Shown here: positions 2,305 to 25,818 of the stretch, in pieces
Layout of the letters: every line of letters starts with the position of its first letter
Numbering within the stretch: position 1 is the stretch's first letter
Source of the DNA: Bdellovibrio bacteriovorus
GTDB lineage: Bacteria > Bdellovibrionota > Bdellovibrionia > Bdellovibrionales > Bdellovibrionaceae
Assembly (NCBI RefSeq): GCF_002208115.1
Contig: NZ_CP020946.1
Coordinates: 3,410,001 to 3,474,000, forward strand
Direction of reading: 5' to 3'
DNA length: 64,000 nucleotides
Translations under genes and position numbers: made by a program
Notes under the pieces: model-generated
What the model saw: only the letters and a program-made list of their open reading frames with translations
The model's database searches: none
Told to the model about the DNA's origin: nothing

Positions 2305-2715
2305 ATGACTGAGATTATTCTTTATTCATGCCTGGGAATCTTTCTGATTGAGATGTGTCTGATCCTTAAGGAACTCCGACGGATCAATTTCGAAAAACGC
2401 TCCCAATCAACGATCAAAGAGCTTCAAGAGCAAAAAGACAAGCTCAACCAAAGACTGAATCAGGCTCTGTCTGACGTGGAAGGCATCAATCACCTTTGGA
2501 ATCAGTCAATCATGTCAGAACAAAAGCTGAGAAAAGAGCTTGAAGTCACCAAAGTTCAGATGGTTTATCTGGCCCAAAAGGTGGTCAAGGCACAAGAGCC
2601 TGTTCTGGAAGCTGAAGAGGCTGAAACTGACAAAAAGTCCTATTGGGAAAAGAGCTCCGGAGAAGCCATGCGAGTACGCTATCCAATGACGGAAAAAACA
2701 ATGGATTTCGTTTAG
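2305..2715 (+). CDS. Small membrane-anchored coiled-coil protein, unknown function
   Basis: This 136-residue protein opens with one hydrophobic segment (residues 3-21, IILYSCLGIFLIEMCLIL). A long charged helix of about residues 22-105, rich in Lys, Glu, Gln and Leu in heptad-like spacing, follows (ELQEQKDKLNQRLNQAL), predicting a coiled coil facing the cytoplasm. The acidic C-terminal part contains EAEEAETDKKSYWEK. The ATG at 2305 is preceded by AGAGGGG, a good ribosome site. The gene stands alone and is divergent from motA. I do not recognise a family. Confidence 0.7.
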   Translation: MTEIILYSCLGIFLIEMCLILKELRRINFEKRSQSTIKELQEQKDKLNQRLNQALSDVEGINHLWNQSIMSEQKLRKELEVTKVQMVYLAQKVVKAQEPVLEAEEAETDKKSYWEKSSGEAMRVRYPMTEKTMDFV

Positions 2716-5422: not shown

Positions 5423-6589
5423 CTACCTTGGCTTGAAGAAGCGGCTGACAAAGTCATCCAGACGCGCACCAAACATGATTTTAAAGAAGGTTTGAGACTC
5501 ACCATACGACTGCCCTGGCGGAATATTATAGAATCCGTCAGCGGGATCAACCACTTCGCCGGAGAATGACATGGAATCCTGCCGTACTCCCGCCAGAACA
5601 TCCACCTGCCAGCGTTTCACCCACGGAATCGCCTGAATATGCATCAGTGCTGTCGTTCCAAGCGTGATTTCATAAATCTGCCCTTTGCCCGTACTGCCGC
5701 GGGTAACTCCGCTGTCGCTGAAGGTCACCTCGGGGAAAAGATTTATGTCGGCATAGATACGGTTCCATGACCAGTCAAACCCCTTCGTGGATTTAAACAA
5801 AGGGTCACCCAATAAATAAGTGAATCGGCCACCCAGACCCAAACCCGAAGTTTTTGTACCCAGAACATTTTCGTCATCATTCTCAGTGACGAATTCGCCA
5901 CTTAATGAAATCAGCTTTACCGTAGGTCTTAGCTCTTTCCAAATCGGAAGAAATCTGTAGTGCAGAGCCATTCTCATTTCGGAATAGGACGTCTGCTCCA
6001 GGGTCCTGTTGTAGGATTTCAATGGGATCTTGGCGCCGTATTGATCAAATTCGATTCCAAAGCGCCACAAAAAATCTATGTACCATTCAAAATGGGTGTT
6101 CAGATAGCTGTAGTCGAATGTCTTGAAACCATTGGCTCTGTTTGAAGTCACCGTTGACAGATTTCCATTCAGCAAACCGGTTTGTATCTGAATATATCCT
6201 GGCTCGTACGTCTCGGGATCCGGTTCGGGAAACGGACTGGTGGACTCTGGAGGTGGCTGTTCAACAGCACCAGGAGTCAATCTGGCCAGATTGATAACTC
6301 TATCTTTAGTGGTTGGAATTTTTACGAGCGTTCCCGGCTGAAGTATCAAGACAAGTTTCCCGTCCTGAACAGTTCCCACTGATCCCTGTGCGATGATCTC
6401 GACGTTATCAGCATACAGTCTGACGACTGAAATCAGATCACCAACACGAAGCAGTGGAGTTCTGTCCACAACAAGAATGTCGTTGTCGACTTTAACAATC
6501 GGGACCGAATCTCTTTGTATCAGATTCAGTCCCCATTCCTGCGCATTGCTGAAAAATCCAAGAAGAATTACACAAAGCAGTTTAAGCAT
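5423..6589 (-). CDS. Predicted outer-membrane barrel protein with periplasmic N-terminal domain
   Basis: The protein has 388 residues with a signal peptide of about 16 residues (LLCVILLGFFSNA). Residues of about 17-105 form a small beta-rich domain (VDNDILVVDRTPLLRVGD, GSVGTVQDGKLVLILQPG), followed by a Pro/Glu-rich linker near 110-128. From about 130 on there are amphipathic, aromatic-rich strands typical of an outer-membrane barrel (GYIQIQTGLLNGN, HFEWYIDFLWRFGIEF, FKIMFGARL). The ATG overlaps the stop of the preceding 6.2-kb gene (TAATG), indicating translational coupling. It could be the outer-membrane partner of the giant lipoproteins. Family unknown; the barrel call rests on strand patterns only. 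Confidence 0.65.
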   Translation of the reverse strand: MLKLLCVILLGFFSNAQEWGLNLIQRDSVPIVKVDNDILVVDRTPLLRVGDLISVVRLYADNVEIIAQGSVGTVQDGKLVLILQPGTLVKIPTTKDRVINLARLTPGAVEQPPPESTSPFPEPDPETYEPGYIQIQTGLLNGNLSTVTSNRANGFKTFDYSYLNTHFEWYIDFLWRFGIEFDQYGAKIPLKSYNRTLEQTSYSEMRMALHYRFLPIWKELRPTVKLISLSGEFVTENDDENVLGTKTSGLGLGGRFTYLLGDPLFKSTKGFDWSWNRIYADINLFPEVTFSDSGVTRGSTGKGQIYEITLGTTALMHIQAIPWVKRWQVDVLAGVRQDSMSFSGEVVDPADGFYNIPPGQSYGESQTFFKIMFGARLDDFVSRFFKPR

Positions 6590-9500
6590 TACTTAGCCCG
6601 GTAGATATTTCCTGTGCTGCGGCTGATTAACAAAATCTGACCCGAAGTGTACACCGCGATGCTATCAATAGGGTTCGGGGCAGAGCTTGTGTATATCTTA
6701 TTATTTGTGAGATCCATGGTAAATATCTGATTGGAATCTCTCATAGTCCCTACCAAAGTCCGGTCGGCTGAATTCAACACAAATCTTCGCCCCTGCCCGG
6801 CCACATCAAATGGTGAAGCACTGAGTGTTCCCTTACCGAAGAATTGCAGATCCGAAGCCAACGGCGTGACGCCACTGCCATCTGCGAAGGAGGCGATCTC
6901 GCCAGTACCGGTCAACAGTACATAGACCTTGTTGGTCGTATCATCCAGAACGATGTCTGTAGGGCGTGTGTCCACATCCGCAGCCAGACCATTCCAGATA
7001 TTGAAGCTGCTTACCAATGTCGGAAGATTTCCTGACTTAACCGGATAGACGTTAAAGACATACATCTTGTGCTGTATTGGAGATTCCTGCTGTGTTGCCA
7101 CATACAATCTGTCCAGGTTCGCACTGTAAGCCATGCCGGATATCTTTTCTTTGGCTGCATTGAAGGAATATACCAAACCGCCATTTCCTGGCAGAAGATA
7201 GTCGTAATACAAAGCATCCTGAGCATCACTAGCATAGAAGACATAGTCCCCGAATGAAGCGACGATACGGTTGCCGGATGCACTTGTAGATGTGTACAGC
7301 TGCTTAAAGCAGGTGGCATCGCACTTATTCCCTGAACCCAAAGACAAAGCCGTCAGGTCGCCTCCAGCGATACTGACTGCCTGAGCTGTGGTGCTGTAGG
7401 GTCCAGAGCGACCCGGCTGTGAAACCAGATTGATTTTATAAGCAGAAGCACTGGTTTGCACTACTGCCAGACGTTGCGTACTGAATCCAGACGCCCAAGG
7501 CAATGTTTCATAGAAGTTCCAGACAGAACCTGACTTCAAAGATCCATTCGGAGTTGGAGCCACACCTTTGATACTCAGGAAGTCCCAGACAAAGTTCTTC
7601 AAAGATGAACCGTTTTTATAGCTTCCAGAGAAAATCAAGTGATCCAGATTTCCACTGGCAGAATTTACTGAGTATGGAACCTCATTCAACCAGGTGATGG
7701 ACGATGGCGTAAAGCTGGATGGCGACGCCTTCCTTGCATTGGAAAGATTAAACACGCTTTCCGCAAGAAGATAAACGTTTCGTACACGCGCTGTCCATTC
7801 ACGGGTCGTGACAAAGTTACCGTCTGTCACTTCAACTTTAATTTTTTGAATACCGGCCGTGGTCTGCCCAGTGTTCACCAATGAACCGGCTGAATCATTT
7901 GGCTTATATTTGAATTCAGGTCCTTCATCTTCAGTCAGGACGCCGTTCACATACCAACGATAGAAAAGGGTGTCATTGGCATTTGAATCCGTTGCAGTAA
8001 CCTGGAAGGTACTCTCGGACTTTTCAGTCACCAAAACGGAGTCAGACGCCGGGAAATAGCTATTGATTACCGGGGCCTGCTCTAGAGGTGAATAAGGATC
8101 CTGCACGATTAGATTAAAGTATGTCGTATCAGTCTCGTTGGTCTTGGTGTCTTTAATCTGAATTCTGACCACATGACCTGTGCCACCAGACGGTGTCACA
8201 TCATCGGGAATCTTAGGTGTCCACGTGATCACACCGTTACTGTCCACACACATCCCGTTGGCCACGCCACAGGCCCGTGGCGAATTCAACAATGTATAGG
8301 TTAGTGTATTACCCCGTGAGTTACTGACGATGGTTTTATAAGTAAATGGATAAGTCGCCAGACCACCTGCCGTCTGAGGCATAAAGTGCAGCGGCTGACC
8401 TGCCAGATCGCTTCTTGGACTGATAAAGTATGGCGGAGCTTTTACAATCAAACGTAGAGGAGCCGAACTGACTGTTGGAGTCAGCGCGACGCCATCCCTA
8501 TCCACATCTCCGTTGTCAGTCAAATAAAGCGTCGCCGTATGAGTTCCGATATGCCCACGCTGCGGGCACCACTGAAGACGATAATAGTAGAACCGAACTC
8601 CGGAAGAAGTATTTGTTCCCGTGGACATGATGTAAAGCTTCGGCACGGCAAAGTCAGGATTTACAACGCCATTTTTCACGCAAGTCGCGATCCCAAGATT
8701 TCTGTTATAACTTGGATCAAAAGTGGTGATCTCTTCAGACCAGGTTTTAGATTGCGCATGACATGTCGTCACCCAGGATGAGCTGGTATCCAGCGTCGGA
8801 TGAAGCAAATTTGTGCCATCATTATTTTTACACAACGTCAGCTTGGTCACAAAGGTGCCGCCACCAGGGATATTCATATCCTTGTCGTTCACAAAGAAGT
8901 CTTTATAGAAGTACGTGTCCGCCTCGATAGCCAGCTGATTGTTTGTGGCGATACCGCCAAATGTCGGATATTGATTGGTATTTACGACACGCACTTTAAA
9001 GAACAAGTCCTGTGATTTTGAAATAGCCGGACTGGTGCTGGCATCTGTCGCACGCATCTTCAGAATAATTCCGGCAGCACCTGAAAAAGCCTTTGCATGA
9101 CCGTCGGTGGGCGTCCACTTAAACAATGCCGTCGTACGGCTACCTTTACCTGATGGGTCATCTTCACGTTTATTGATCGTCAGACTGACGTTGACTCCTG
9201 GTGCACCACCATCAGTTCCGTTTTTAAGATCTCGCGTACCAAGCAGTGATACACTGACAGTTTTCAATTCTGTACCGCGATTTGGATCCTTCAGATAGAA
9301 ATAGAAAGATCCTTCTTTACCCTCCTGGAAGGTCCCCATATCGATAGGATTGGCAATGGTCGTTCCAACCCCTGCTGCCAAAGGTGCAAATGAGCTGTCT
9401 GACAAAATCGGAGCCACGTTCTTTTCAACAACCACCAGACTCAGGTTCGTCTGAATAATAGCGGCTGCAGATGTCGATCCACCAGACCAGGATGGATACT

Positions 9501-12500
9501 CGTAACCGGTAAGCTTGAATGAGAATGTCCCTGACAGATCCTCATCATGTGGTTGATAGCGCAAATAACACCGGGAGCTTTCAAAGTAACCCTGATAAGC
9601 CGCTCCCGGCGCCGTGTTCGTACAAGGTGTACAAGTCGAAGCATAGGTAGCTCCGGCCTCGCGACAGAATTTATAAGCGCCTTGCGGAGCTGTCCCCACC
9701 GATTGAATACCCATACTAAAATAGTCGAATTTGTCGATCGGATACCAGTAAGGGTCCACTTGATAATAGGGTGACGGAATGCCTGAACCGGAATCTGACA
9801 GCTCGACTATTCCATCTGTCAGATCGATTCCTTCATTGGCATAAATGACCGACGACGAAACCAGACGAGAAGATGTGTTCCAGTAAGAATAGCGGACCTG
9901 ATATGGCAGCTCCGAAATATAGCGCGGATCAGATGTTAAAGTGTCATACCGTCCGATATTAGAGGTCCGTTTCACCCAAACATCTGCTGTCGTTTGACCG
10001 ACAGCAAAGTTCACCGGCGAAATGACCGAGTAAAGCGCAAACAGTGAGTTGCGGACGATAAATCCTGCAGGAATAGTAAATGCAGTCGTGGTGGAAGTTC
10101 TGCTGAAACGAACTTTCCCTTCAAATGTAAACTTACTCAAAGCCAAGGACGCCGGATTGTCCACCGTCAAAGTCGCCGCCCCCGCAGGCAATGCACTTAC
10201 GATCGTGTTGATTGTTCCATGGTCTGAAATATATCCATCCAAGGCACGATACTTGAATTCCCGAGTGGTGTTTCCACTGAGAAACTTATCGTCTTTCCAG
10301 ATATTTCCCGCATTCACGTCAACCAGATTAGATCCCGTAGTCGCGGACAGCACCGGCCCACCGGGCTGGGCACTGGTGATACTCATGGCATCGCCAGCAT
10401 TAAAAGTGATCCGTTTTCGCCATACCGGCACAGATACACTGCTGCTTGCCGCCGGGAAAACAAATGCGGTCGGGATTTCAAACTCAATACTTGGATTGCC
10501 CGTTGTTTTCACAACGAACCCTTTGGGAATCGTGACATCTGTTGCAAATATTCCCGGACGATAGAATGTCACCAGGCCCTGATCAGAAATCACTGCGGTA
10601 TTTTTGACTGCGATCTGCGCGTCGGCCAAGGCAGAACCCAGAACCGTCACAGAATTTGCGGCGGCATCCCGGTTTACAGCCACAACCGGAATATAAGCTT
10701 TCAAATCCTGTGCATTCAAAGTCACCGCAAGCGCAGTCTTATAGGCAACAACATTTCCCGAAACCCCACTGGTCGTCGTCACAGCAAAATTCTTGGGAAT
10801 AACCACATCACCGGTATGAGTCGTTGCCCGGGAAAATACAACATAGCCAGCAACGTTATTGATCGCAACATCACCCGCAAACACTGTGCGCATCGGGAAT
10901 GTTCCACCCTCTTTTCGGTACACCGGACCATCACTGGAAATGGTTTCTTTAAGCACCAATGGGTAGCCCGTTGAATTGTCATACATAAGCTTCAAACTGT
11001 CCAAATTGGTTGAATCAAAGCTGAAGAACTCAAACCAGACCGGACTGCCACTATAGCTTGTGGCCTCAAGATTACGAATAACCTGTGGATTCACAGAGTT
11101 CAAGGTTGTCTGCGGAACTCTGGTCAGCAAACACGGTACGGTGATACGGGGTTCAGCTTCCAGATCAAAGACTTCAGCTTTACTGATTCCTCCGTGATTA
11201 TCCTTCACACTGACGGTGATATTCCCCTTAAGTGCGGCCCGCATTGGCTTCCACGTATATGTAATACGAGTTCTGGCTGCTGTGATTTCCCGTGGCGGAA
11301 CTTCGGTCAGATCCGCAAACAAAGTACCACCGATGGTGATCTCCATCGTATCCATTGGATCCGCAGCCGGCGTCGCCACGTTGTCCGGGTCTGTAATATC
11401 AACATAGAAAGTATACGGATCACGGCCCAAAGGATCCTGGTCCGAACAGGTATCCCATTCGCCCGGAGTCATCGTCGGATCTTTAGGTGTCAGTCCGGCA
11501 ATGACCGGTGCCGAGTTGATATCCACAATTGTCAGAGGAATAGTGACAATGGCCAAACCACCCCGACCGTCTTCGATACGGGCAATAATGTTCGTAGAGC
11601 GTTTACGAGCATCTTCGTTGTTCGGCGTCCACTTCATGGTGATCTGGGTTTTGCCGGTCAAGGTCACCGGACTTGGATTCCCATCAACATAGATCGGGCG
11701 CGATCCGCTGATACTGTCCACCACGACACTTAATGGATCGCCATCGTCATCCAGGAACTGAACCGTACAGGTCCATTCCTGATTTTCCCTGGCTTCTTTA
11801 GGGCATTCAAAATAGCTGATCGGACGGCGATTGACGTCCTCAACGTAAACATCCCAGTTTGCCGTCAGGATCTTACCGCCATCAGTAATCAAAACAGTGA
11901 TCAGGAAAGGATCCAGACGACCGTCATCATAGCCAGGAGTCCAGCTCATCCGGCCTTCGTCAGAAGCAACAGGGGTTCCTTCCAAACGCCACGCATAGAA
12001 CAGCTGATCGCCTTCGGGATCTCGTGCCGTGGCACGCATGGAAAGCTCTTTTTGTTCACGAATGCGCTGATCCACCAGCTTGGTCGAAGACTTTTCATCC
12101 AGAATCGGCGCACGGTTGTTCACACCGAACGGATAAGGTGCACTCAGCACATCCCCATTGGCGTCATAGTTAAAACTGACCTGAAAATCATTTTTTAGAA
12201 GTTCCAGGAACGTATGATCGACCGACAGACCATTGCGAATGAATCCATACAGCAGGTCTGTATTGAAGCCTTCCTGCAGACCGAAAAGCTCCATACGTTC
12301 TTTTTTGAATTGTGTAATATAGGCAATAATTTTTTCGAATTCCAAAGAGGAATAAGAAGATATGGAACGGTCCGGATAGTTGGAGATCAGATTGAAGGCC
12401 AATGTGCTTTCAAGGCTTGGTTTTACCACAACATCCGGGAATATCAGGCTGTACCAGGTGGTGGTGCTGTATTCCATGATCGTTTTCAGAACCATCGGGC

Positions 12501-12780
12501 CTTTTGAACTGACCCCTTTGGGAAGAATGGTTTGCACCAGGTTCTTTTTTTCCAAAGACGACAGATCGACAAGGTTCTTGATCAAACCAGTAGTCTGACT
12601 GTATTCAGCAATGAAGAACGAATACTTTTCAGAAGTAATAGTACGGACTTCAGTGGCATCGATTTGAATCAATGCCCCTGGATCAATAACGATTTCGCTG
12701 GTCTTACTGGCTTCCTCCAGGCAACCCGTGGTGAAAGCAAATGAGATCATTAGCAATAAACGTACAGCTGTTTTCCCCAT
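6589..12780 (-). CDS. Giant lipoprotein (2063 residues) with tandem Ig/cadherin-like domains
   Basis: The lipoprotein signal ends at Cys20 (FAFTTGC). Residues of about 205-560 hold tandem Ig/cadherin-like units with acidic turn motifs (RDPEGDQLFYAWRL, LDDDGDPLSVVVDS, TDPDNVATP), as in putative-Ig and cadherin repeats of bacterial adhesins. Near residues 650, 740 and 890 a short motif recurs three times (VVIPKNFAV, VTIPKGFVV, FTIPAGFIV, each preceded by a Phe-x-Arg strand), resembling repeats of baseplate-J-like proteins. More cadherin-like units follow at about 1080-1700. The last 350 residues look like a beta-propeller with YVTN/NHL-type strands (RPTDIVLDDTTNKVYVLL). The start has a GGGGGA ribosome site. 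It is third in the surface-protein run; an adhesion role is inference. Confidence 0.85.
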   Translation of the reverse strand: MGKTAVRLLLMISFAFTTGCLEEASKTSEIVIDPGALIQIDATEVRTITSEKYSFFIAEYSQTTGLIKNLVDLSSLEKKNLVQTILPKGVSSKGPMVLKTIMEYSTTTWYSLIFPDVVVKPSLESTLAFNLISNYPDRSISSYSSLEFEKIIAYITQFKKERMELFGLQEGFNTDLLYGFIRNGLSVDHTFLELLKNDFQVSFNYDANGDVLSAPYPFGVNNRAPILDEKSSTKLVDQRIREQKELSMRATARDPEGDQLFYAWRLEGTPVASDEGRMSWTPGYDDGRLDPFLITVLITDGGKILTANWDVYVEDVNRRPISYFECPKEARENQEWTCTVQFLDDDGDPLSVVVDSISGSRPIYVDGNPSPVTLTGKTQITMKWTPNNEDARKRSTNIIARIEDGRGGLAIVTIPLTIVDINSAPVIAGLTPKDPTMTPGEWDTCSDQDPLGRDPYTFYVDITDPDNVATPAADPMDTMEITIGGTLFADLTEVPPREITAARTRITYTWKPMRAALKGNITVSVKDNHGGISKAEVFDLEAEPRITVPCLLTRVPQTTLNSVNPQVIRNLEATSYSGSPVWFEFFSFDSTNLDSLKLMYDNSTGYPLVLKETISSDGPVYRKEGGTFPMRTVFAGDVAINNVAGYVVFSRATTHTGDVVIPKNFAVTTTSGVSGNVVAYKTALAVTLNAQDLKAYIPVVAVNRDAAANSVTVLGSALADAQIAVKNTAVISDQGLVTFYRPGIFATDVTIPKGFVVKTTGNPSIEFEIPTAFVFPAASSSVSVPVWRKRITFNAGDAMSITSAQPGGPVLSATTGSNLVDVNAGNIWKDDKFLSGNTTREFKYRALDGYISDHGTINTIVSALPAGAATLTVDNPASLALSKFTFEGKVRFSRTSTTTAFTIPAGFIVRNSLFALYSVISPVNFAVGQTTADVWVKRTSNIGRYDTLTSDPRYISELPYQVRYSYWNTSSRLVSSSVIYANEGIDLTDGIVELSDSGSGIPSPYYQVDPYWYPIDKFDYFSMGIQSVGTAPQGAYKFCREAGATYASTCTPCTNTAPGAAYQGYFESSRCYLRYQPHDEDLSGTFSFKLTGYEYPSWSGGSTSAAAIIQTNLSLVVVEKNVAPILSDSSFAPLAAGVGTTIANPIDMGTFQEGKEGSFYFYLKDPNRGTELKTVSVSLLGTRDLKNGTDGGAPGVNVSLTINKREDDPSGKGSRTTALFKWTPTDGHAKAFSGAAGIILKMRATDASTSPAISKSQDLFFKVRVVNTNQYPTFGGIATNNQLAIEADTYFYKDFFVNDKDMNIPGGGTFVTKLTLCKNNDGTNLLHPTLDTSSSWVTTCHAQSKTWSEEITTFDPSYNRNLGIATCVKNGVVNPDFAVPKLYIMSTGTNTSSGVRFYYYRLQWCPQRGHIGTHTATLYLTDNGDVDRDGVALTPTVSSAPLRLIVKAPPYFISPRSDLAGQPLHFMPQTAGGLATYPFTYKTIVSNSRGNTLTYTLLNSPRACGVANGMCVDSNGVITWTPKIPDDVTPSGGTGHVVRIQIKDTKTNETDTTYFNLIVQDPYSPLEQAPVINSYFPASDSVLVTEKSESTFQVTATDSNANDTLFYRWYVNGVLTEDEGPEFKYKPNDSAGSLVNTGQTTAGIQKIKVEVTDGNFVTTREWTARVRNVYLLAESVFNLSNARKASPSSFTPSSITWLNEVPYSVNSASGNLDHLIFSGSYKNGSSLKNFVWDFLSIKGVAPTPNGSLKSGSVWNFYETLPWASGFSTQRLAVVQTSASAYKINLVSQPGRSGPYSTTAQAVSIAGGDLTALSLGSGNKCDATCFKQLYTSTSASGNRIVASFGDYVFYASDAQDALYYDYLLPGNGGLVYSFNAAKEKISGMAYSANLDRLYVATQQESPIQHKMYVFNVYPVKSGNLPTLVSSFNIWNGLAADVDTRPTDIVLDDTTNKVYVLLTGTGEIASFADGSGVTPLASDLQFFGKGTLSASPFDVAGQGRRFVLNSADRTLVGTMRDSNQIFTMDLTNNKIYTSSAPNPIDSIAVYTSGQILLISRSTGNIYRAK

Positions 12781-12801: not shown

Positions 12802-15800
12802 CTAATACAGCAGGAAGAATGTGCCGGTTTGAACACCCTTTGTTGTTCCATATCCACTATGCTGCTGCGTTGGAACGAGCAGATCCATACTGCCATCCCC
12901 GTTAACGTCCCCCGCGCTGCCAAGATCATAGAAGTACCATGGTCGAATCGAAACTTCAGTTTGACGAACAATAAACGGCTTCACCTTGCCGGCGCTGTCA
13001 GCAACAACAACGCTATCTGGAATATCTGAAGTATGCAGACCAGTTGAGCTGCCGAAGAACATCACACCACGGCCATAACCATCAACTGCGTTAATTGGAT
13101 CGTCCCAATAAGGAGACCCCAGCAACACGTCATCAAAACCATCATCATTGAAGTCCCCGGTTGTTCTGCTGGACATCAACGTCATACCGTATTGCTGACC
13201 AGATTCCGCATCTTTCACATAGAAGGCCTGCGGTGCCGGCTTGGGCGTATTGCTGCTTCTGTTACATTCAATCAGCGGCGTAATCCCAAGGGCAGGGTTC
13301 GAGAACTCCACTTGTGTATTCAGATTGCTGAATGCATAAGTCCAGACTGCACTTGTATTATCCGATCCGCAGATCGGCCCGTAATAGACATAACCCATGC
13401 CCGCTTTAGCCAATGAAGACGATGGGGACTGCACAGGAGCTGTTACAACCAGATCCTCGTAGCCATCTCCATTGATGTCCCCCGGATTCGCAATTCTGTA
13501 TCCAAACAGTCGATCCGAGCTGTTCAAGCCACCAAATAACGGAGGCATGATAGCCCGCGTGGTTCCTGCGGTACCATTTCCGGTTCCACCATTTCCATTC
13601 AGTGTGTTATCCGAAGCCTGGAAGGCAGTATCACTCGTACAAGTCGACGCAGCATACGGAGCATAATAGCTTTTGCGTTCAGCAGCCTGAATACCCTGAG
13701 CTCCACCCCGATAGATGAAGATTCTGCCATAGCTTTTCTTCGGATTGGTATCATAGTAACAAGCCACGTCTTCCCAACCCGGAGCCGAAACATACAGATC
13801 GTCATAGTCACCGTTACGCATAATTGCGACGCTGTGACCGAACTGGTGTCTCATGGTATCGTAACCATACGGAACGTTTTCCACCATCGGACTGTATAGG
13901 TACTGAACCTTACATTTATTATTAGGAGCACCGGTGCAGACTTTATCAGCCGTTGCTGCCGTTTCGGTTCCATAAGTATCGATCAACCAAGAGCTGACAC
14001 TTGATGGATTCACAAAATTTGGGCTTGGCTCATCGCCAGCTGTATACGATGGGCTTGCTTTCTTCGGCGTCTGCACACCCTGTGCAGACCCATAAAAGAT
14101 CGCCAGTTTCCCCATGTGCACCGAGCCTCTGCCAGAATAACAATCTTCATCCGCCACAGGAAGACACTGCCAGCCCTTTGCTGGTGCTGCACCCGTTGGA
14201 GGCGGCCCCGGGTTGATCCCGTCTGCTACATTCATTTTGAACATTGAAGTCGCATGGCCATCAACCAGCACAAGATCTGACTTGCCGTCACCGTTGAAGT
14301 CACCGTGATAGACATACTGCGCACGATGCTTGAAGGATGCCGCATAGTCGGCATCTTCAACTGAATTTGCACCCCAGATCTTGGTGATGATCTGAGGGTC
14401 ACCGATGGCCGCCACCCACGATGGGCTGTTGACTGCAGACAGCCCCGATGCAGAACCATAGAAGACCGTCACTTGTCCGGTTGCATTTGGATCCACAAAG
14501 GCAACATCCGCAAATCCGTCGCCATTGACGTCACCGGCTGCGAAGGCTCTCAGCGCCCAAGAAGCGGAAAGACTGGAAGGACGGACAATCAGCTGAGGCA
14601 GAGGAATATCGTCATTGGTGATTCCCTGTGCCGGAGCCACCGTTGGATAACAACTGGAGCTGTCTGTCGCCGCATCTTTGAAGATCAAAGCGATATTCTC
14701 AAGACAGTATGACGTTGAAATCAAACCCAGCTTGGATCCATAGTACACCACCGCATCAGTAATCTTACCGGTGCCGGTTTCAGATGCTTTCGAGATCTTT
14801 GCCACGACGTCATCGTATCCATCACCGTTGATATCACCAACGAAAGAGGCCGACTCATATCCAAAGACCTGCATGCTTCCAAGATTGTCCACAATTTTGA
14901 AATCAGGCGTTTGGTTCACACCGGAAAGGACAGAACCGCTACTCAGGAAACCGTACACAGCACCGCCGCCCAATTTGTGCGAGCGATCCAGGTAAGCTCC
15001 GGCAGCCACATCCAGATACGGACGTCCACTCGTGGCGAAATCACCATCGAAGTTACCGATAGCCACAGATCTGCCAAAATAGGAATACGTCAATGACTGA
15101 TCATTATAGAACTTAAGGAAGGTACTGGTCAGACCATAGCCTTTATAGCTTGAGAAAGCATAGACAGCACCGGCGCTGGTTCCCACCGTCGTGTCACCGG
15201 TAGCACCCACCACAACATCCATCTGACCATCGCCAGAGATATCGCCGACAGCGATAGCACCGGAATGTGCACCCAGATGTGCCAGCGAATTAATCGATTC
15301 ACTTCGCACCAATGTGGGTGCACAGTTCATTTTTGTGGATGCCGTTGTGTCACTGAATGCGGCGCAATTCGGCATCTGATCAAGCCAGTCATTTGTTATG
15401 TTCGACCCATTCAAGCGATAGAAAGAGTCATATTCATACAACCGGCCCGCATTACCATAGAAGGTCCATAGTGCACCGGAATTGGTCTTGGTTGGGGACG
15501 AGAAGAAGCCAGTACCAACTACGATATCCGCCCAGCCATCGCCATTGGCATCTGCAAAAGCAGTTTTGGTTGTATTTGTACTGTCATAGCGTGATGAGTC
15601 GCCAAGAATAGCAACAGAGCTACCAAAAGCTCTGGACACATAGCCCGACAAATCACCGCGCGGGAACAGAATACGGAATGAAGACGCATCCGCCAGGCAG
15701 GAATAGTGCTCCAAATTCAACATTCCTCGGCGCCCGCACTTCCAGAAAGTTTTACGATATGGTTGATCAATATCTGAAATTGCCGGAGCAGAATCTCGAC

Positions 15801-17982
15801 CACGGCCAAAATAAATAAATGCCGCACCTGGCGCGCCACCAGTAACTGAAATGCTCCCGCTGTCGGTTCCATTCCCAGCTTTAATGCCATAGGCATTATT
15901 AACACCGTTAGCCGTGAAAGACGTCCCACCAAACCAACCACCATCACCCGGTGTTACGGATTTACAGTTGTCGGGGCATGAACCACCAGTAGGCAGCTTA
16001 AAGTTCGCCGAATCGGATGCATCCGGATAATTGAATCCCGGAGCCCCAATGATCATATCAGATCCACCCACAAGTGTGCCGTCAGGTCTTCGAACTTTGA
16101 ACTTCCCATCCACATCAGCACCGCCGGCAATGGAGAAACCAAACTTCATGCCTGCAGTTGGAATTGGTGGATAAATCTGAAGGAATCTGAATTTGGCATC
16201 AGAAGCACTCTGCGCAATAGATGCTTCCGGAGTTTCATAACCAACTCCATAGGCCGACCCAAAGTACATGGAAACATATCCGACATTGGTGACATATTTG
16301 GATTCACCAGGCAGAGCAGCATTGGCTACCCCCTGCCACACCCCGCGCGGAGCACCAATGGCAATGTCATCGTATCCACCGGCATTGAAGTCACCGACGA
16401 AGGCAACAGACAAGCCGAAATTATTACGGATGCGGGCCCAACTAGGCACTGTTTGTGCCGGGTCATAGTAACCAGCTGGATATAAAGCTGTGTTCGGCCA
16501 CAACATGACCGCCGAACAAATCGCCCCCTCCAGAACCCCGTTACAAGTTTCGATATTCTGCTGCATGTCCTTAACATGCCCCGGTGCTTTCAGGCCTTTT
16601 TCACTGCCGAAGAAGACAAATGCCGCACCTTGATCTTCGATCCCGCCACTGTCAAACCCAGGGGCACCAACCAGCAAGTCCTGACATTGATTAGAACCAC
16701 TGATGTCCCCGTTCACATTTCCTTTACCCGCCAGTGCATAGCCGAATTGACTGTACCTGTCCAAATCATCAAATGTGATGATCTGAGGATCTTTACCGGG
16801 ACGTGCCGGACTGATCAACGGCTCGCCAGTTCTGTTCAGCTTGTAAACACCATTGATAAGCTCGGAATAATAAATAACAACGGCCCCGGCCTGGGGTACC
16901 GTATTCCCCAATGAAGTGATGGAGGCATTGGGCATACCGACAGCCAGATCCTCATATCCATCACAGTTGAAATCCCCGGAAGTCATGGCTTCACCAAGGA
17001 ACGCCACACCCAAATCAGAATTCAGCACCGGAGGTGATTGTTTGATCGGGGAAATACCTTTGATATAGGTGGACAGTCCGTCAAACACTCTTGTCTCATC
17101 GACGGTGCTGTCTTTGTAATTTACGCGAACCTCAATGTTCTTAGCCTCGCCAATAGGCAGATTGGCTGATGAAGAAAACACCAAAGTGCCCTTGCCAACC
17201 AGTGGATCCGATATCGCCTGCCCGTCTTTATAAACTCGGGTGGTGTAGTTTTCGTTTCGATACTGCAGATTTACAACTGGCTCGACATCCACATAGGGCA
17301 AAGAACCAATGGAAATACGGCTGAGCTTGACCACGGGCTCCGGGAACGAAGACGTTGTATTGGCCGTTACAACCTTGGTGGAACGTTCATAAGTTCCATC
17401 TTTATACTTAGCCTGAACAACAAAGTGATAGCGGCTGGAACCGTCCAGATTCTGGAACACATACTGGTTGGCAATCGTGGAAGCGTTATAAACTGTCCAG
17501 TCAGACGTATTGGCAGCTGTCGGATCTTCCTGCTTTTTATAGAAAATCAAATAGCTATCAACCTGCTTGTCATATTCCCAGGAAACCGTGACGGAGTTTT
17601 CAGTTCCCAAAACCGCCTTGGATACGCCGGCAAATCGCTTCCAGGTGGTCACCGTGACCTCGCGCTCGCCGCCGACCACGCTGTCTCCACTTTTTCCGAC
17701 AACCTTATAGGTATACGAAGTATCCGGACTCAGATTGCTGACAGTGTATTCACCAAACTGAATCACATCCAGAGGTTCAGTCTTGGAACTGTCATAGATT
17801 TCATACTCTTTGTAACGATCATGCAGGTTCCAGATGATTTTAACCGACGTCGGAGATAAAACCTCGATGCGGTCCACACCGCTGAAGTCCACCAGCAAGG
17901 AACCGCTTTCAAGTTTCTCGGTACAAGAAACCAGTATCGTCAGAAGAGATGTCAGAGCAAATATCTTCCTAATAAAGCACAT
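12802..17982 (-). CDS. Giant FG-GAP repeat lipoprotein (1726 residues), paralogue of the upstream gene
   Basis: The lipoprotein signal ends at Cys20 (LLTILVSC). Two fibronectin type III domains follow at about 28-112 and 113-208 (LSPTSVKIIWNL, LSPDTSYTYKVVG). From about residue 320 to the end there are roughly 14 FG-GAP repeats, each pairing a Phe/Tyr-Gly strand with a calcium-loop motif, for example GDFNCDGYEDLAVG, GDINGDGYDDVV, GDFNGDGKSDLVLV and GDVNGDGSMDLLVP. In integrin alpha chains such repeats build a seven-bladed propeller, so this chain could form two. The N-terminal FnIII region and the C-terminal repeat match the upstream gene closely in pattern, pointing to tandem duplication. 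The ATG has a GGAG site and lies within the end of the preceding gene (14-base overlap). Confidence 0.9.
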   Translation of the reverse strand: MCFIRKIFALTSLLTILVSCTEKLESGSLLVDFSGVDRIEVLSPTSVKIIWNLHDRYKEYEIYDSSKTEPLDVIQFGEYTVSNLSPDTSYTYKVVGKSGDSVVGGEREVTVTTWKRFAGVSKAVLGTENSVTVSWEYDKQVDSYLIFYKKQEDPTAANTSDWTVYNASTIANQYVFQNLDGSSRYHFVVQAKYKDGTYERSTKVVTANTTSSFPEPVVKLSRISIGSLPYVDVEPVVNLQYRNENYTTRVYKDGQAISDPLVGKGTLVFSSSANLPIGEAKNIEVRVNYKDSTVDETRVFDGLSTYIKGISPIKQSPPVLNSDLGVAFLGEAMTSGDFNCDGYEDLAVGMPNASITSLGNTVPQAGAVVIYYSELINGVYKLNRTGEPLISPARPGKDPQIITFDDLDRYSQFGYALAGKGNVNGDISGSNQCQDLLVGAPGFDSGGIEDQGAAFVFFGSEKGLKAPGHVKDMQQNIETCNGVLEGAICSAVMLWPNTALYPAGYYDPAQTVPSWARIRNNFGLSVAFVGDFNAGGYDDIAIGAPRGVWQGVANAALPGESKYVTNVGYVSMYFGSAYGVGYETPEASIAQSASDAKFRFLQIYPPIPTAGMKFGFSIAGGADVDGKFKVRRPDGTLVGGSDMIIGAPGFNYPDASDSANFKLPTGGSCPDNCKSVTPGDGGWFGGTSFTANGVNNAYGIKAGNGTDSGSISVTGGAPGAAFIYFGRGRDSAPAISDIDQPYRKTFWKCGRRGMLNLEHYSCLADASSFRILFPRGDLSGYVSRAFGSSVAILGDSSRYDSTNTTKTAFADANGDGWADIVVGTGFFSSPTKTNSGALWTFYGNAGRLYEYDSFYRLNGSNITNDWLDQMPNCAAFSDTTASTKMNCAPTLVRSESINSLAHLGAHSGAIAVGDISGDGQMDVVVGATGDTTVGTSAGAVYAFSSYKGYGLTSTFLKFYNDQSLTYSYFGRSVAIGNFDGDFATSGRPYLDVAAGAYLDRSHKLGGGAVYGFLSSGSVLSGVNQTPDFKIVDNLGSMQVFGYESASFVGDINGDGYDDVVAKISKASETGTGKITDAVVYYGSKLGLISTSYCLENIALIFKDAATDSSSCYPTVAPAQGITNDDIPLPQLIVRPSSLSASWALRAFAAGDVNGDGFADVAFVDPNATGQVTVFYGSASGLSAVNSPSWVAAIGDPQIITKIWGANSVEDADYAASFKHRAQYVYHGDFNGDGKSDLVLVDGHATSMFKMNVADGINPGPPPTGAAPAKGWQCLPVADEDCYSGRGSVHMGKLAIFYGSAQGVQTPKKASPSYTAGDEPSPNFVNPSSVSSWLIDTYGTETAATADKVCTGAPNNKCKVQYLYSPMVENVPYGYDTMRHQFGHSVAIMRNGDYDDLYVSAPGWEDVACYYDTNPKKSYGRIFIYRGGAQGIQAAERKSYYAPYAASTCTSDTAFQASDNTLNGNGGTGNGTAGTTRAIMPPLFGGLNSSDRLFGYRIANPGDINGDGYEDLVVTAPVQSPSSSLAKAGMGYVYYGPICGSDNTSAVWTYAFSNLNTQVEFSNPALGITPLIECNRSSNTPKPAPQAFYVKDAESGQQYGMTLMSSRTTGDFNDDGFDDVLLGSPYWDDPINAVDGYGRGVMFFGSSTGLHTSDIPDSVVVADSAGKVKPFIVRQTEVSIRPWYFYDLGSAGDVNGDGSMDLLVPTQQHSGYGTTKGVQTGTFFLLY

Positions 17983-20900
17983 AGATCACTCCAGTTGAAT
18001 ATGCTTGTCCTGACGGATGAGTTCTTCCAGTTGAACCCACAACAACATCCAGCGCACCATCACCGTTGACATCGCCAACAGCATTTTGACTCAAGTACGT
18101 GTATTCATTTTGCGTCCGCAATGGCAAATAAACCAAAGAGGGCTCACAGATCGGACTGGATCCGCCGCGGTAGCAGCGAGGTGTCGGAGTCGGCGTTTCC
18201 ACGATTCTTAAACCCAACTGACTGCCGAAGTAGACTACGTAGGCGCCCGTGCCCTCGATCACTTGATCAGAGTCATAAGTTTTGCCCGGAGCATTTACCA
18301 ACAGGTCCGGATAACCATCCAGATTCATGTCACCAATGGCGGCAAGCCCCACCCCGACCTTGTCGCCTGGAACAAACAAAGACGATTGAATTCTTTGTGG
18401 TTTTGGCTGCAATACATTGGCGTGCATCGTATTAATTGGCAGCGGATTTAATGCCGAATCAAAGTAGTCTGTGCTGTTCAAATCCGTCGCTCCGTAGAAG
18501 GCATAACTGCCGCCAACAACAGCTCCGTAGAAGACATAGGTAATACCGGTATTCGCAGACGATGAAGAGGCAAATGGTGCCGAAAGCGCCACGTCGTCAA
18601 TATCATCTCCGTTAACATCCCCCAGACCGGCAAGGCTGTAACCAAACATTTCCCCTGGGGTGGATCCCACAAGTTTCTGGATTGGAGTGTATGACAAACC
18701 CCGATCGGTTCCACGATACAGATAAGCACGTCCTGAGTAGGAATTATAGCCAGGATCAGAAACCAACAGTTCTGAATAGTCATCACCCGCGGCTTCATCA
18801 AGTGAATCCAAGCCTATTGCGCCCCAGCCAAAGTACACACCCGAATCGACAGAAGCAATCTGTTGAATTGAGCAAACGGCCGGCTTGGCAGCAGTACACG
18901 GCTGTTCTACAACCACGTCGGCTTGAGTTTCAGATATTACATTTCCACTGCCATCATAGGTCACGTTACGCAGCAGAATGGTACCTGTCGCACGATTCAC
19001 CTGCAATCCGCTGGCACCGCCATAAAGCACGAACAAGCGTCCACGATTTCCACTGACAAAGTTACCAACAGCATCCGCCGGAATAACAGAATCCGGCAGT
19101 TTGTAGGTTCTTGCGCCGGAACTGGACCACATGCCTACGACAATATCGCTGTAACCATCGGCATTGAAGTCACCATAATGAACACCCCGATTGTTTGAAC
19201 GCATTTGAGAGAATTTAAAAACATCCGGTGTCGAAGACTCTCCGCCATACAAATAACCATCATGGAAGACGGCAACAGCCGAAGAGGAATTTCGGGCAAA
19301 CCAAAGAGGGTTGTTACCCACTGGATTGATCGACGGTTCGCCTATAACAACCCCAGAACTTGAACCATAGAATATATAGCTGCCTTTGGAACCGATCACC
19401 ATAATATCGTCATAGGCATCACCATTGACACTGCCAATACGATGGTACGCACTTCCCAGATAAGCATCCGCCGTACTGGAAAGTATGGTAGGAGAAGTCG
19501 GAACGGAAGGCGTCTTCGACGGCGCTGGTGAAGTGATCAACCCGCTGGCACTGCCATAGAAGATAATCAATTCATATCCCTGCCCCGTGGCAATATGGGT
19601 CATAACATCATCGTACCCATCGCCGTTAACATCCCCGACCGCTTTTCCTTCTTCAAAGGAATAGTTCAGCTCCTTACTGAAGTTGGGCTTGATGGTCTCG
19701 GACGCTGTCGTCACTGAAGATGCAAAGGCACCTTTTGAATTAAAGATGAAGAGCGCACCATTTCCGTATGCAGGAGCATTTACGTATGGGGCACCGGCAA
19801 CAAAGTCACCTTTTTCATCTCCATCAAAGTCACCACCCGCCAGGCTGCCAAGGCCAAAGCTTGCACCTGAATTCAGATCCTTTGGATAAATAATTGAAGG
19901 TCCAAACGGATTGATACCACCACTGTACCAGGTACACTTGGTCGTACATCCGACAGTGTCATCATCAGACAAGACCGGTGCGGTGATTTCAGTGATCGTG
20001 CTTCCATCATCCTCTGTTCCAAATGTCGAAACATCCGGACTGTAAAGATAAACAACCCCGTTATTGGTAATATTCGAAGTGCCCGAGCTGTTCTTCACAG
20101 ACCTGAATGGCGCTGACACCGCCAAAGATGGCAAGGCGCGAGACTTGGATTCCACATCAGGTACCGTACCCATGGAGTATCCAAACTGAACACCGGTTTC
20201 CGCTGGGCTTGTGAAGATCATCTGATGGTTGCAATGCAGCAGGGTTCCTGTGGCAACAGCGTTGTTTCGGCTGTTACAGGCAACTGAATTGGCAGCAGCA
20301 ATCACTTGACGCCCTTGAACCAATCCACTGTTCAGAATCCCCTGGATTCCACCCGTGGTATATGAAGACGACTTCGGCGTCATATAATAACCAAACACCA
20401 CTCCGGCGTTCGTAGCGCCCTGAACAGTTGATTGAGGCGCACCTACAAACAAAGAACCACTGATGTCCGGCACCGCATTGGAAGTTTTAATGATACTTTC
20501 AAGCGGGTATCCATTCTGATTTTTAACCCCGTGGATACTGAAGCCGTAACCCTTCACGGTCACATTCGCAGTTTCCTGAGCGCCCCCTGCGGCCGCCATA
20601 TCAGGATAGGACTCCTGACAATCCCAGCTTGAAATTTTATAGCGATCAGCTCCGGAGGTTGGATTCACCCCTTTACAAGTCACAATAGAGCCTCGTCCCG
20701 ATGCACGGTCCGGGACACCAATCACCAAATCATCACACTTGGTGAAATCAAAGCCCTTGGCTCGTTCAAGATTGGAAGGACGGAACTGAGCCCCCGCCGG
20801 GCTGCCGGTAATACAAGTACGGGAATTATATGCGACACCCAAGGCGCTAGCAAAGCCATCCAGGTATCCGTACCCAAATCCATCAGATAAATCCGCATCA

Positions 20901-22759
20901 AAAGAACCATCTGTAAGAAATCCGGTAGCGCTGAGACCTTCAGCCGTGATTGGAGCATGATTCAAAGTACTGCTTGGCGGATAAAGTCCCCAAACACTTC
21001 CACGCAGGACATGAACAGCACGCGCGTATGTGCCCGTTTGCTGAACACCAATTGCCAGATCATCATAGCCGTCGTTATTGAAGTCACCGAAAGCGATGGA
21101 TTTGACGTCTTTCACGTTCGTGTCATCCAGCTGAACCGGACGACATTTATGTGATGACGGTTCACACGTCACTTCATTTGTGCCATATGATGTACCACCG
21201 CTACCAGAAACCAATCCAGTCACAGGGTCGCCAAAGATAACAAAGACCTTTCCATTGTCTGTGGTGATCGCCAGATCATCACAAGAATGGATCTTTTTTA
21301 CCTTTGCCAGTGGCATCTGTCCGGAACCAGTAAATGGAACGTGCAGATCATTACAACTGCCAACTGTACTTGCTTTCGTATCCGGCAAAGTTTCCGGATC
21401 AAATTCTTCCGATCCATAACGGCTGTAACAGTCACCATTCGCATTACCCACCGCCATCTTCAGCCCCAGACGTGCCTGAGCCCCCACAGATGGATAGTAA
21501 ATCAGCTGAGGATTTGGAGCCTTGGCCCCTTCCGTCGGCAATTGGTCCGTTTTCAAGCGAGGATCCGGAGTATATGGCGTCCCGTTTTCATCCTGCTGGT
21601 CAGCCGGTTGGTATCCATAATAAACAACAACCGCACCCAAACCGGCACTGCGATAGGCATTCACCACAGGTGTTGCCCGCGGAGCCGTCACGGCCACATC
21701 ATCAAATCCGTCACAGTTAAAATCACCTACAGCTGTATTCTGACCCAGATCCTGAATTCCAAGACCACCGTTCACCAAACGTGGATAAAGCGGGTCTTTC
21801 GCACCGGCTCCTTCAAGAGAACGAATCAAAGGTTTCGTGAAGGCACCTGCGCCTTCGGTGCCAATATTTACGATTGTTGCGGCTGAACCGGAGCTGACTT
21901 TTGCATACCAGTCTTTTTGGCCAGGGCCGATTGAAGTCAGGGCACGGAAATAGTCATTCCCCTGAACTGAAGCCACACGAACATCGGTTGCCCGATCAAA
22001 GATCTCTGTCTTATATGTCGTGTCTCCGTTTTCAGTCCAGAACCATGGATAGTTTCCGGAAAACGCCATGTTGATTTTTACCTGCGGAAGGTTCGGCAAA
22101 AGCGACTGAACCAGCATGCACGGAGCTTTGGAATTGATATAAGCCAGAGTGTTGTTTTCCGGCTGTGAAGTTCCGTCACCATATTTTGCAACAACCCAGA
22201 AACAATACTTCGAACCACTTGCCAACGTCGTCAACGAAGTCTGCCCTTTGCCAACAACTGAAGCTGTTGGAGACATCAGGTTCCAAGACTGGGACTCCAA
22301 ACGAGTGAACACCTGGTATTCAACGTTTTCGCCATTTTTAAACCAGTTCACTTCCACAGCACCATTGGTCTGCGGAATCACGCCTGAACTTGGTACCGGC
22401 GTGAAGTTTTCCAGAGTACTTACTGCAACGAATTTTTCAATACCGACTTCGGTTTCATCTTCCGCCTGAACACCCACAACAGAGAACTGATAGGACGTTG
22501 CCGGATTCAAACTGTCCACGATTGTAGAAGCAAATGTCACAGTTTTGCGAGGAGTGCTCTCACCTTTGAGATAAATTCTGTATGCTTTAAATCGGGACTG
22601 CAGTGTCCAAGAAAGACGAATTGCTGTCGGTGAAAGTGCCACAGCAGAGTCCACGCCGTTGAATTTTGACGGCAAAGTGGTTCCCTGCAAGCCTGCCTTC
22701 GCACACGAAAGCAAACTACCGCAAATTAGGAAATACAGAAGTGTGTATTTTAACGACAT
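17969..22759 (-). CDS. Giant FG-GAP repeat lipoprotein (1596 residues), first gene of the surface-protein run
   Basis: From the ATG at 22759 the lipoprotein signal reads MSLKYTLLYFLICGSLLSC, with Cys19 as lipidation site; an in-frame GTG nine bases upstream (22768) is the alternative start. Two FnIII domains follow (LSPTAIRLSWTL, LNPATSYQFSVVG). About 13-14 FG-GAP units then run to the C-terminus, with calcium-loop motifs such as GDFNCDGFDDVAV, GDFNNDGYDDLAIG, GDVNGDGYDDVM, GDFNADGYSDIVVG and GDVNGDGALDVVVG. Spacing, order of domains and the last repeat before the terminal VLY parallel the downstream paralogue. The protein should be lipid-anchored in the envelope and calcium-dependent. An adhesion function is inferred from the integrin-like architecture, not shown. 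Confidence 0.9.
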   Translation of the reverse strand: MSLKYTLLYFLICGSLLSCAKAGLQGTTLPSKFNGVDSAVALSPTAIRLSWTLQSRFKAYRIYLKGESTPRKTVTFASTIVDSLNPATSYQFSVVGVQAEDETEVGIEKFVAVSTLENFTPVPSSGVIPQTNGAVEVNWFKNGENVEYQVFTRLESQSWNLMSPTASVVGKGQTSLTTLASGSKYCFWVVAKYGDGTSQPENNTLAYINSKAPCMLVQSLLPNLPQVKINMAFSGNYPWFWTENGDTTYKTEIFDRATDVRVASVQGNDYFRALTSIGPGQKDWYAKVSSGSAATIVNIGTEGAGAFTKPLIRSLEGAGAKDPLYPRLVNGGLGIQDLGQNTAVGDFNCDGFDDVAVTAPRATPVVNAYRSAGLGAVVVYYGYQPADQQDENGTPYTPDPRLKTDQLPTEGAKAPNPQLIYYPSVGAQARLGLKMAVGNANGDCYSRYGSEEFDPETLPDTKASTVGSCNDLHVPFTGSGQMPLAKVKKIHSCDDLAITTDNGKVFVIFGDPVTGLVSGSGGTSYGTNEVTCEPSSHKCRPVQLDDTNVKDVKSIAFGDFNNDGYDDLAIGVQQTGTYARAVHVLRGSVWGLYPPSSTLNHAPITAEGLSATGFLTDGSFDADLSDGFGYGYLDGFASALGVAYNSRTCITGSPAGAQFRPSNLERAKGFDFTKCDDLVIGVPDRASGRGSIVTCKGVNPTSGADRYKISSWDCQESYPDMAAAGGAQETANVTVKGYGFSIHGVKNQNGYPLESIIKTSNAVPDISGSLFVGAPQSTVQGATNAGVVFGYYMTPKSSSYTTGGIQGILNSGLVQGRQVIAAANSVACNSRNNAVATGTLLHCNHQMIFTSPAETGVQFGYSMGTVPDVESKSRALPSLAVSAPFRSVKNSSGTSNITNNGVVYLYSPDVSTFGTEDDGSTITEITAPVLSDDDTVGCTTKCTWYSGGINPFGPSIIYPKDLNSGASFGLGSLAGGDFDGDEKGDFVAGAPYVNAPAYGNGALFIFNSKGAFASSVTTASETIKPNFSKELNYSFEEGKAVGDVNGDGYDDVMTHIATGQGYELIIFYGSASGLITSPAPSKTPSVPTSPTILSSTADAYLGSAYHRIGSVNGDAYDDIMVIGSKGSYIFYGSSSGVVIGEPSINPVGNNPLWFARNSSSAVAVFHDGYLYGGESSTPDVFKFSQMRSNNRGVHYGDFNADGYSDIVVGMWSSSGARTYKLPDSVIPADAVGNFVSGNRGRLFVLYGGASGLQVNRATGTILLRNVTYDGSGNVISETQADVVVEQPCTAAKPAVCSIQQIASVDSGVYFGWGAIGLDSLDEAAGDDYSELLVSDPGYNSYSGRAYLYRGTDRGLSYTPIQKLVGSTPGEMFGYSLAGLGDVNGDDIDDVALSAPFASSSSANTGITYVFYGAVVGGSYAFYGATDLNSTDYFDSALNPLPINTMHANVLQPKPQRIQSSLFVPGDKVGVGLAAIGDMNLDGYPDLLVNAPGKTYDSDQVIEGTGAYVVYFGSQLGLRIVETPTPTPRCYRGGSSPICEPSLVYLPLRTQNEYTYLSQNAVGDVNGDGALDVVVGSTGRTHPSGQAYSTGVIYVLY

Positions 22760-23089
22760 ATACTTCACAGTATAAGTATCGGAATTTATGAATGGAATTA
22801 AAGATCTATCGATGCTCGTTCTTGGTACAGTCCAGTTCCTTTCGTATCAAACTGGCCTTTAGTTTTACACTCTTTCAATGATTGAGCTGAACTCGCATGT
22901 ACGGCATCTGATATTCCACAATGTTGATCCGTTGGGAAAATGCGGGTAACACTTTAAAATTACTTAGCCTCCCATGCAGCGGTCATTTAGGACTTTTGCC
23001 TCATTGCAAGTCAGCAGTATGTGACTATTTTGCAGGTCATATTCCATCACTTCAGTATACTGACCTTGTCTTCGCCAAAGGAGGAATTC
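22760..23089. promoter_or_regulatory. 330-bp divergent intergenic region with a 12-bp palindrome
   Basis: No gene is visible here. The region separates the start of the 20-kb minus-strand run from the plus-strand gene at 23090 and must hold the promoters of both. A perfect 12-bp palindrome, TCAGTATACTGA, sits at 23052-23063, its right edge 26 bases before the 23090 ATG, and contains a TATACT that could serve as a -10 element. On the minus strand another TATACT (22774-22769) lies immediately before the first giant lipoprotein. Neither promoter can be assigned with confidence, because no convincing -35 element was found. Confidence 0.4.
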
Positions 23090-25793: not shown

Positions 25794-25818
25794 TTTATGT
25801 GTAAATGGAGAGCTTCAA

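Follow-up and report, generated by a model that had tools for sequence, protein, structure and literature searches.

What are two giant, adjacent lipoprotein genes doing in the chromosome of Bdellovibrio bacteriovorus, how long have they been a pair, and with which genes do they travel? These questions are raised by genes A and B (Table 1), which lie within the 64,000-nucleotide stretch of DNA analysed here (the window, from the genome that we number G000). The earlier note on this DNA had described the two genes, from the letters alone, as a tandem duplication.

The position of the pair and its first-described features (lipobox, two FnIII domains, FG-GAP repeats) are confirmed by the open reading frames, by Pfam and by comparison of N-termini. 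Both genes are complete ORFs that overlap by 14 bp, and B starts with GTG. Both proteins score above the curated cut-off of Pfam FG-GAP (PF01839; 22.1 bits), and fn3 is above its own cut-off in both; genome-wide, all 14 of the 14 FG-GAP matches fall within A and B. Across the 22 N-termini that were compared, the lipobox cysteine (C22) is invariant, as are S46, P47 and W54 of the LSPT...W stretch. BLASTP aligns the two proteins along the diagonal, matching residues 17-546 of A to 19-577 of B (27% identity over 588 columns, E 3.5e-31) and residues 972-1726 of A to 975-1599 of B (25% over 796 columns, E 2.5e-34), with the best off-diagonal match at 4e-7. The FnIII part taken alone is 33% identical between A and B (E 8.9e-24), so the likeness exceeds that of one shared repeat family. 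This colinearity, together with a split of all A from all B in every domain tree (below), bears out the tandem duplication that had been proposed.

Table 1. Genes of the cluster around A and B. Positions are those of the window, except where prefixed L109 (our reading of the region that includes the genes left of the window).
Feature	Position	Strand	Description	Basis
Gene A, lipoprotein, paralogue of B	12802..17982	(-)	1726 aa; FnIII pair ~17353-17916; FG-GAP repeats ~12805-17031	Pfam FG-GAP 1.3e-51, 172.2 bits; fn3 4.9e-10; BLASTP against B 2.5e-34
Gene B, lipoprotein	17969..22768	(-)	1599 aa; FnIII pair ~22124-22699; FG-GAP repeats ~17972-21778	Pfam FG-GAP 5.4e-43, 144.7 bits; fn3 5.7e-9
Ig-type giant protein	6589..12780	(-)	2063 aa; lipoprotein N-terminus by eye; directly downstream of A	Pfam Big_9 4.4e-8
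388-aa protein, probably outer-membrane (inferred)	5423..6589	(-)	apparent signal peptide	no family match
Von Willebrand A (VWA) protein	4010..5416	(-)	468 aa; DSSGS motif	Pfam VWA 5.2e-9
410-aa protein	2762..3994	(-)	apparent N-terminal membrane anchor; same position in 6/10 relatives	no Pfam match
136-aa coiled-coil-like protein	2305..2715	(+)	apparently membrane-anchored; homologue at same place in 6/10 relatives	
MotA-type stator protein	1343..2143	(-)		Pfam MotA_ExbB 2.8e-23
MotB-type stator protein	381..1340	(-)	C-terminal extension past OmpA-like domain	Pfam MotB_plug 1.7e-19, OmpA 3.1e-17
210-aa probable outer-membrane protein	1..387 (C-terminal end); L109:16756-17388	(+)	start outside window (G000:C1:3409755); conserved beside MotB	
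TPR lipoprotein	L109:15782-16675	(-)	left of window	
192-aa OMP-like/barrel-like protein	L109:15207-15785	(-)	left of window	
322-aa protein	L109:14220-15188	(-)	left of window	
FliG-like rotor	L109:12496-14223	(-)	575 aa; just outside window's left edge	
SpoIIE phosphatase	L109:10726-12489	(+)	after rotor gene	

The number of repeats can be given as a range. The figure of about 14 FG-GAP units per protein agrees with our count by eye (14 in each of A and B), while with a home-made HMM the count for A is 12 at E<0.01 and rises to 15 at E<1, that for B being 11 at either threshold. With 11-15 units, the suggestion that each chain has repeats enough for two seven-bladed propellers is plausible, but its seven blades were left unconfirmed by AlphaFold: the models of B 955-1599 (pLDDT 36.2) and B 1-1045 (pLDDT 29.6), made from an alignment that held the matching part of A only, are unusable.

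To date the duplication relative to the spread of the pair, we turned to the 25 pair-bearing genomes described below, 20 of which supplied an A and 19 a B for the trees. (G010, where A is cut by a contig end, G219, G305 and G309 do not figure in them; G308 is represented by B only, and G211 and G314 by A only.) The trees are unrooted, of the 'quick' type, with SH-aLRT support only. In the N-terminal tree (20 A, 19 B) all A stand opposite all B with a support of 97, and the trees of the first and the second repeat half (39 proteins) give the same split with 100 and 100, G308_B forming a long branch in the second-half tree and G229_B and G308_B each filling less than half of its columns. Single-domain trees again separate A from B, at 94 for the middle domain, 90 for FnIII-2 and 80 for FnIII-1; the split is weakly supported in this last domain, where our own A and B are 37% identical versus 35% for A against the A of G057. 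Three other histories were considered and ruled out: a recent duplication, by the trees; independent duplications in each branch, by the grouping of A and B of family f22 with other A and B; and whole-gene gene conversion, by the recurrence of the same split in all domains.

The next large same-strand gene after B is A in all 19 of the genomes read on one contig (among them G010, where A is cut by the contig end, and G229, where B is a shortened frame ending 0.9 kb before A). The other six pair genomes (G211, G219, G305, G308, G309 and G314) gave two-contig matches or contig ends, or were not read further; in G314 A and a match to B stand 5.3 kb apart on one strand, and the script did not resolve that match as a single ORF. 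These 19 linked-pair genomes span five genera beyond the window's genus and include families f22 and f24, which are outside the window's class. The strong divergence ascribed to the copies holds at 25-27% identity, and it is old, the same pair being found outside the class. By comparison, the closest orthologues within the genus reach 54% identity (A) and 56% (B). That each copy might be nearer to unlinked homologues than to its neighbour was a further concern; what we found is that the nearer orthologues themselves sit in linked pairs. Unlinked closer homologues are absent among the matches listed, from which near relatives may have been left out, and with the same reservation A and B have no nearer kin than each other once orthologues are set aside. 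When named genomes were scanned, at least 45 loci came back, all of them generic FG-GAP proteins, and none among the matches listed matches B before residue 245.

In the repeat halves our own A and B are 26-28% identical, and A or B is 23-29% identical to its most distant f22 orthologues, so that the assignment to A or B in f22 rests on the trees; such similar values are as expected if the duplication and the split of f22 are similar in age. The simplest reading would be one old duplication retained as a pair ever since, a reading which, the trees being unrooted, depends on both copies having been present throughout. The strict co-retention of A and B would fit an obligate pair.

Downstream of A runs a same-strand row with short gaps, composed of the genes for the Ig lipoprotein, the 388-aa protein, the VWA protein and the 410-aa protein; a small gene on the other strand separates this row from MotA and MotB. 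In nine of the ten relatives whose regions were read, A is likewise followed by the Ig gene, and in G010, the tenth, A itself is broken off by the end of the contig. We take the DSSGS motif of the 468-aa VWA protein to be of the MIDAS type; the protein matches CglB weakly (2.2e-4, far below cut-off). The YAD motif of MotB is kept in 9/9. As to the outer-membrane assignment of the small proteins, structure and family searches gave little: the 192-aa protein has weak matches in 3/9 members (best 4.7e-4) and the 388-aa protein has none; the latter lacks a Pfam match in 8/8 orthologues scanned, and it is not similar to a 361-aa protein that likewise lies beside a VWA gene in the second system described below (hhalign probability 0.4). 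Pfam scanning of 15 cluster proteins found no flagellar family other than MotA, MotB and FliG, whether FliM/FliN or export genes, and the six proteins scanned against NCBIfam gave no Glt-named match. Our ORF picking favoured the longest ORFs, by which some small genes were hidden, such as the 192- and 322-aa genes in G006. On the other side of the pair, a 163-aa protein with a PCHR motif is encoded divergently from B (window 23556-24047) and presumably resembles methylated-DNA cysteine methyltransferase, and three ORFs at 25753-30923 look, to us, like an ImuA-ImuB-DnaE2 mutagenesis cassette.

Left of the window lies the gene for the FliG-like rotor (Table 1). By eye, its product consists of a signal peptide, a periplasmic part, a membrane helix and then the FliG-like cytoplasmic part. 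Pfam FliG_C (4.5e-12) and FliG_M (7.8e-8) both match above cut-off; a profile of 15 rotor orthologues finds the FliG structure 1lkv in the PDB (2.7e-30); and hhalign aligns the rotor with a flagellar FliG profile over 311 columns (E 1.4e-17). Its identity to flagellar FliG is 17-22%. In the FliG stretch R..RR....F.D, which we take to be the torque helix, the first R is present in 12/13 rotors and the D in 13/13. The genome's own flagellar FliG is encoded elsewhere, at C1:486 kb, by a separate gene that follows a fliF-like one. Between the periplasmic part of the rotor and FliF the hhalign match is not significant (probability 2, E 0.0079), and the topology, with the membrane helix following the periplasmic part, is alike by eye. 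At four loci, three of them in f22 (L218:1850-3022, L219:4348-5325 and L220:3975-5006) and one in G318 (L225), a smaller rotor-like protein of 325-501 aa precedes the FliG-like rotor and is perhaps a FliF-like partner.

Other FliG_C-bearing proteins were met along the way. The window's genome encodes a third FliG_C-like protein (248 aa, 1.3e-6; L132:1339-2085(-), within G000:C1:2941500-2945500), adjoined by a lipoprotein of 384 aa (L132:2302-3456(-)) whose DNSAS motif is VWA-like and which presumably resembles CglB. Long frames of 769-905 aa with FliG_C occur in G304, G306, G307, G308, G309, G311, G314 and G318, and stand-alone FliG_C proteins of ~150 aa in several carriers.

We examined co-occurrence in two sets of genomes. 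The first consists of 59 genomes, our own among them, drawn from the genus, its family and its order, and here A, B, the Ig lipoprotein, the 388-aa protein, the cluster-type VWA protein, the cluster-type MotB and the rotor are all found in the same 11 genomes, in a patchy distribution within the genus. Cluster-type cut-offs were E <= 3e-84 for VWA, E <= 3.4e-55 for MotB (next match 2.3e-45) and E <= 1.3e-78 for the rotor; counting any match, VWA is found in 14/59 (three extra genomes, weak matches only) and MotB in 58/59. In the second set, 368 genomes of the phylum, up to five pair candidates and three rotor candidates were scored per genome. The shared N-terminus, used as a profile, finds the pair at E <= 1e-20 in 25 genomes, and the best genome after these stands at 1.4e-15; the 115 of 140 pair-profile genomes below the cut were treated as generic FnIII matches. 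The rotor is found in 26 genomes at E <= 5.7e-135, and in the next genome (7.2e-26) the FliG part alone is covered. Both thresholds were chosen after the gaps were visible. The pair is present in 25 of the 26 rotor genomes and in none of the 342 others (hypergeometric p 7e-38, uncorrected for kinship). The rotor of G219 consists of two contig-end pieces. The single rotor genome without the pair is G311, whose contig ends ~3.6 kb upstream of the rotor, by position presumably inside the Ig gene, so that A and B may merely be absent from the assembly.

Linkage was examined in the same genomes. The rotor lies on the contig of A or B, within ~16 kb, in 18 of the 25, and on another contig in seven (G010, G219, G305, G307, G308, G309 and G318), which may reflect assembly breaks. 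Its place in the row varies. Our genome and seven relatives in the genus have it after MotB; G028 and G214 have it immediately upstream of B, as do G057 and G244 except that one small gene on the opposite strand intervenes; and in f22 (three genomes whose reading reached this far) it sits between the Ig gene and MotA/MotB. That the linkage persists through a rearranged order argues for joint function.

A second, more distantly related system with its own MotAB was also seen. We read 12 loci with a second type of MotB (L094-L105) in other genomes of the order (G012, G023, G022, G024, G028, G004, G015, G040, G046, G052, G030 and G032). A membrane-anchored FliG-like rotor of 600-odd aa is recognised by BLAST in seven of them (L094, L095, L096, L098, L099, L104 and L105), a VWA gene is recognised in five (L094-L098), and several have FnIII or Ig lipoproteins and a TPR lipoprotein as neighbours. 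A profile of eight second-class rotors, two of which (L100 and L101) were included by position and length, has a 501-column alignment to the first class (probability 99.2, E 1e-19) and matches FliG structures at 1.4e-6. Near some of these loci FnIII lipoproteins weakly match the N-terminal profile of A and B (for example G028:C98:49363, 2.7e-12). The window's genome has no MotB of the second type, its best other hit listed being at 2.1e-14.

Several functions might be read into such a gene set. A and B could be a plain pair of adhesins, static surface proteins that bind ligands, with the motor genes as mere travelling neighbours, and it is in keeping with this that the cluster contains FG-GAP, FnIII, VWA and Ig domains, which are typical of adhesion proteins. 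Hitch-hiking, however, poorly explains a co-occurrence that still holds in 25 of 26 genomes while the position of the rotor differs between branches, and we regard a static pair as quite unlikely. The cluster might instead act as a contact sensor, in which binding by A and B would alter the activity of the stator or of the SpoIIE-type phosphatase, so that the unit signals and does not move. A HAMP-SpoIIE phosphatase gene does come after the rotor in our genome and in the seven genus relatives read that far past MotB, and a HAMP-SpoIIE protein is also found in the second, related system of G012; but the phosphatase went unrecognised in G028 and in the regions of 11 further genomes, and a sensor would not obviously need a FliG torque domain, which leaves this reading, to our minds, highly improbable.

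A possible objection of another kind is that the cluster serves the flagellum, with the extra MotAB and the FliG-like protein as modifiers of the ordinary motor and with the three lipoproteins (A, B and the Ig protein) as decoration of the flagellar sheath or pole. By the title of a 2011 paper, three motAB products reportedly contribute to single-flagellum motility. The MotAB genes of the cluster are probably motA2/motB2 (bd3021/bd3020) of strain HD100, and one publication treats MotAB2 of Bdellovibrio as a flagellar stator (PMC11323537). Twenty genomes, G311 and 19 that carry the pair, were moreover examined for a flagellar-type FliG, and 18 have a match (E <= 4.9e-40; G229 and G314 have none, and in G309 it is a 214-aa frame only), so that absence of flagella is unusable as an argument against a flagellar role. 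The idea that f22 carriers in particular lack flagella was not borne out, flagellar-type FliG being matched in 8/9 of the f22 genomes examined. Other observations do speak against the flagellar reading: the rotor has an apparent signal peptide and a membrane anchor of its own and is as little as 17-22% identical to flagellar FliG; the flagellar fliF-fliG genes lie elsewhere; beyond MotA, MotB and FliG the 15 cluster proteins scanned contain no flagellar family; and a FliG match is also present in 44 of the 48 genomes that lack the cluster, from which it follows that flagella manage without it. We consider a flagellar accessory role unlikely.

Judged by comparison of their sequences, A and B are products of one old tandem duplication, predicted lipoproteins that are inherited with the Ig lipoprotein, the 388-aa protein, the VWA protein, MotA/MotB and a membrane-anchored FliG-like protein distinct from the flagellar FliG. 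The pair and a second flagellum-type motor gene set together suggest a motor-driven surface machine without a flagellum of its own, and our preferred reading, held with moderate confidence, is that A and B would be the two subunits exposed at the surface in a conserved machine of the cell envelope, powered by MotAB and the FliG-like protein. If it works as the flagellum does, MotAB would draw on the ion gradient and push against the cytoplasmic, FliG-like domain of the rotor, whose periplasmic part, along with the TPR lipoprotein and the probable proteins of the outer membrane, would pass movement or torque on to that membrane. The proteins there that contact a surface or another cell would be A, B, the Ig lipoprotein and the VWA protein, A and B jointly forming the binding head, perhaps side by side. 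Adhesion, gliding and prey contact or holding are candidate outputs, none of which we prefer. Agl/Glt-type sets exist in Bdellovibrio according to one paper (PMC3271064), and another distinguishes four separate agl/glt-like sets and gives Bd0828-0838 as the best gliding candidate (PMC3169522); since one of these sets is already the published candidate, gliding is not preferred over adhesion or prey contact. A 2026 review calls the gliding machinery of Bdellovibrio unidentified (PMC13104615). In the open-licence PubMed Central literature we did not find a description of the cluster.

A bolder version of this proposal, which we put forward as a tentative possibility, is that Bdellovibrionota possess a second kind of rotary motor, with stator and rotor of flagellar ancestry, FliG fused to a membrane and a periplasmic part, and no filament, which would move integrin-like twin lipoproteins to grip or crawl on surfaces or prey; the distantly related second class would run other FnIII/Ig lipoproteins. 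To our knowledge, FliG-type rotors are known from flagella only, and a conserved unit of FliG and MotAB, if tied to giant binding proteins of the surface, would illustrate how the flagellar motor can be rewired. The testable set is about a dozen genes, a new candidate beside the Agl/Glt sets, and it suggests that MotAB2 is worth re-examining as something other than a flagellar stator.

How does the proposed machine compare with known systems? For B the nearest solved structures are integrins: searched against them, a profile of B and ten orthologues (11 sequences) finds integrin alpha-V propeller chains first (3.1e-16), and alpha-4 and alpha-5 are also among the nearest to the FG-GAP repeats. 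As in the integrin head, there is a VWA domain with a MIDAS-type motif, here encoded in the same gene row. Unlike integrin alpha, A and B are lipoproteins in which no transmembrane helix or cytoplasmic tail is seen by eye, the chain ending at the last repeat; there are two predicted propeller proteins, each with 11-15 repeat units versus seven; and the VWA domain is a separate protein.

Among motors, the Agl-Glt system of Myxococcus with its VWA lipoprotein CglB likewise brings together an ion-driven stator, outer-membrane proteins and a VWA protein, but the cluster has MotAB and a FliG-like rotor; the comparison with Glt covered NCBIfam families by name. The GldLM motor of type IX secretion and gliding and the ZorAB defence motor are, like the proposed motor of the cluster, ion-driven stators outside flagella, and we know of no FliG-type rotor in either. 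The flagellar motor itself shares with the cluster the MotA and MotB domains, the middle and C-terminal domains of FliG, and the R and D kept in the torque-helix stretch. In contrast to the flagellar arrangement, the FliG domain of the rotor stands behind a membrane anchor and a periplasmic domain whose similarity to FliF is not significant, and the motor genes of the cluster, at a distance from flagellar fliF-fliG, are linked to those of giant lipoproteins of the surface.
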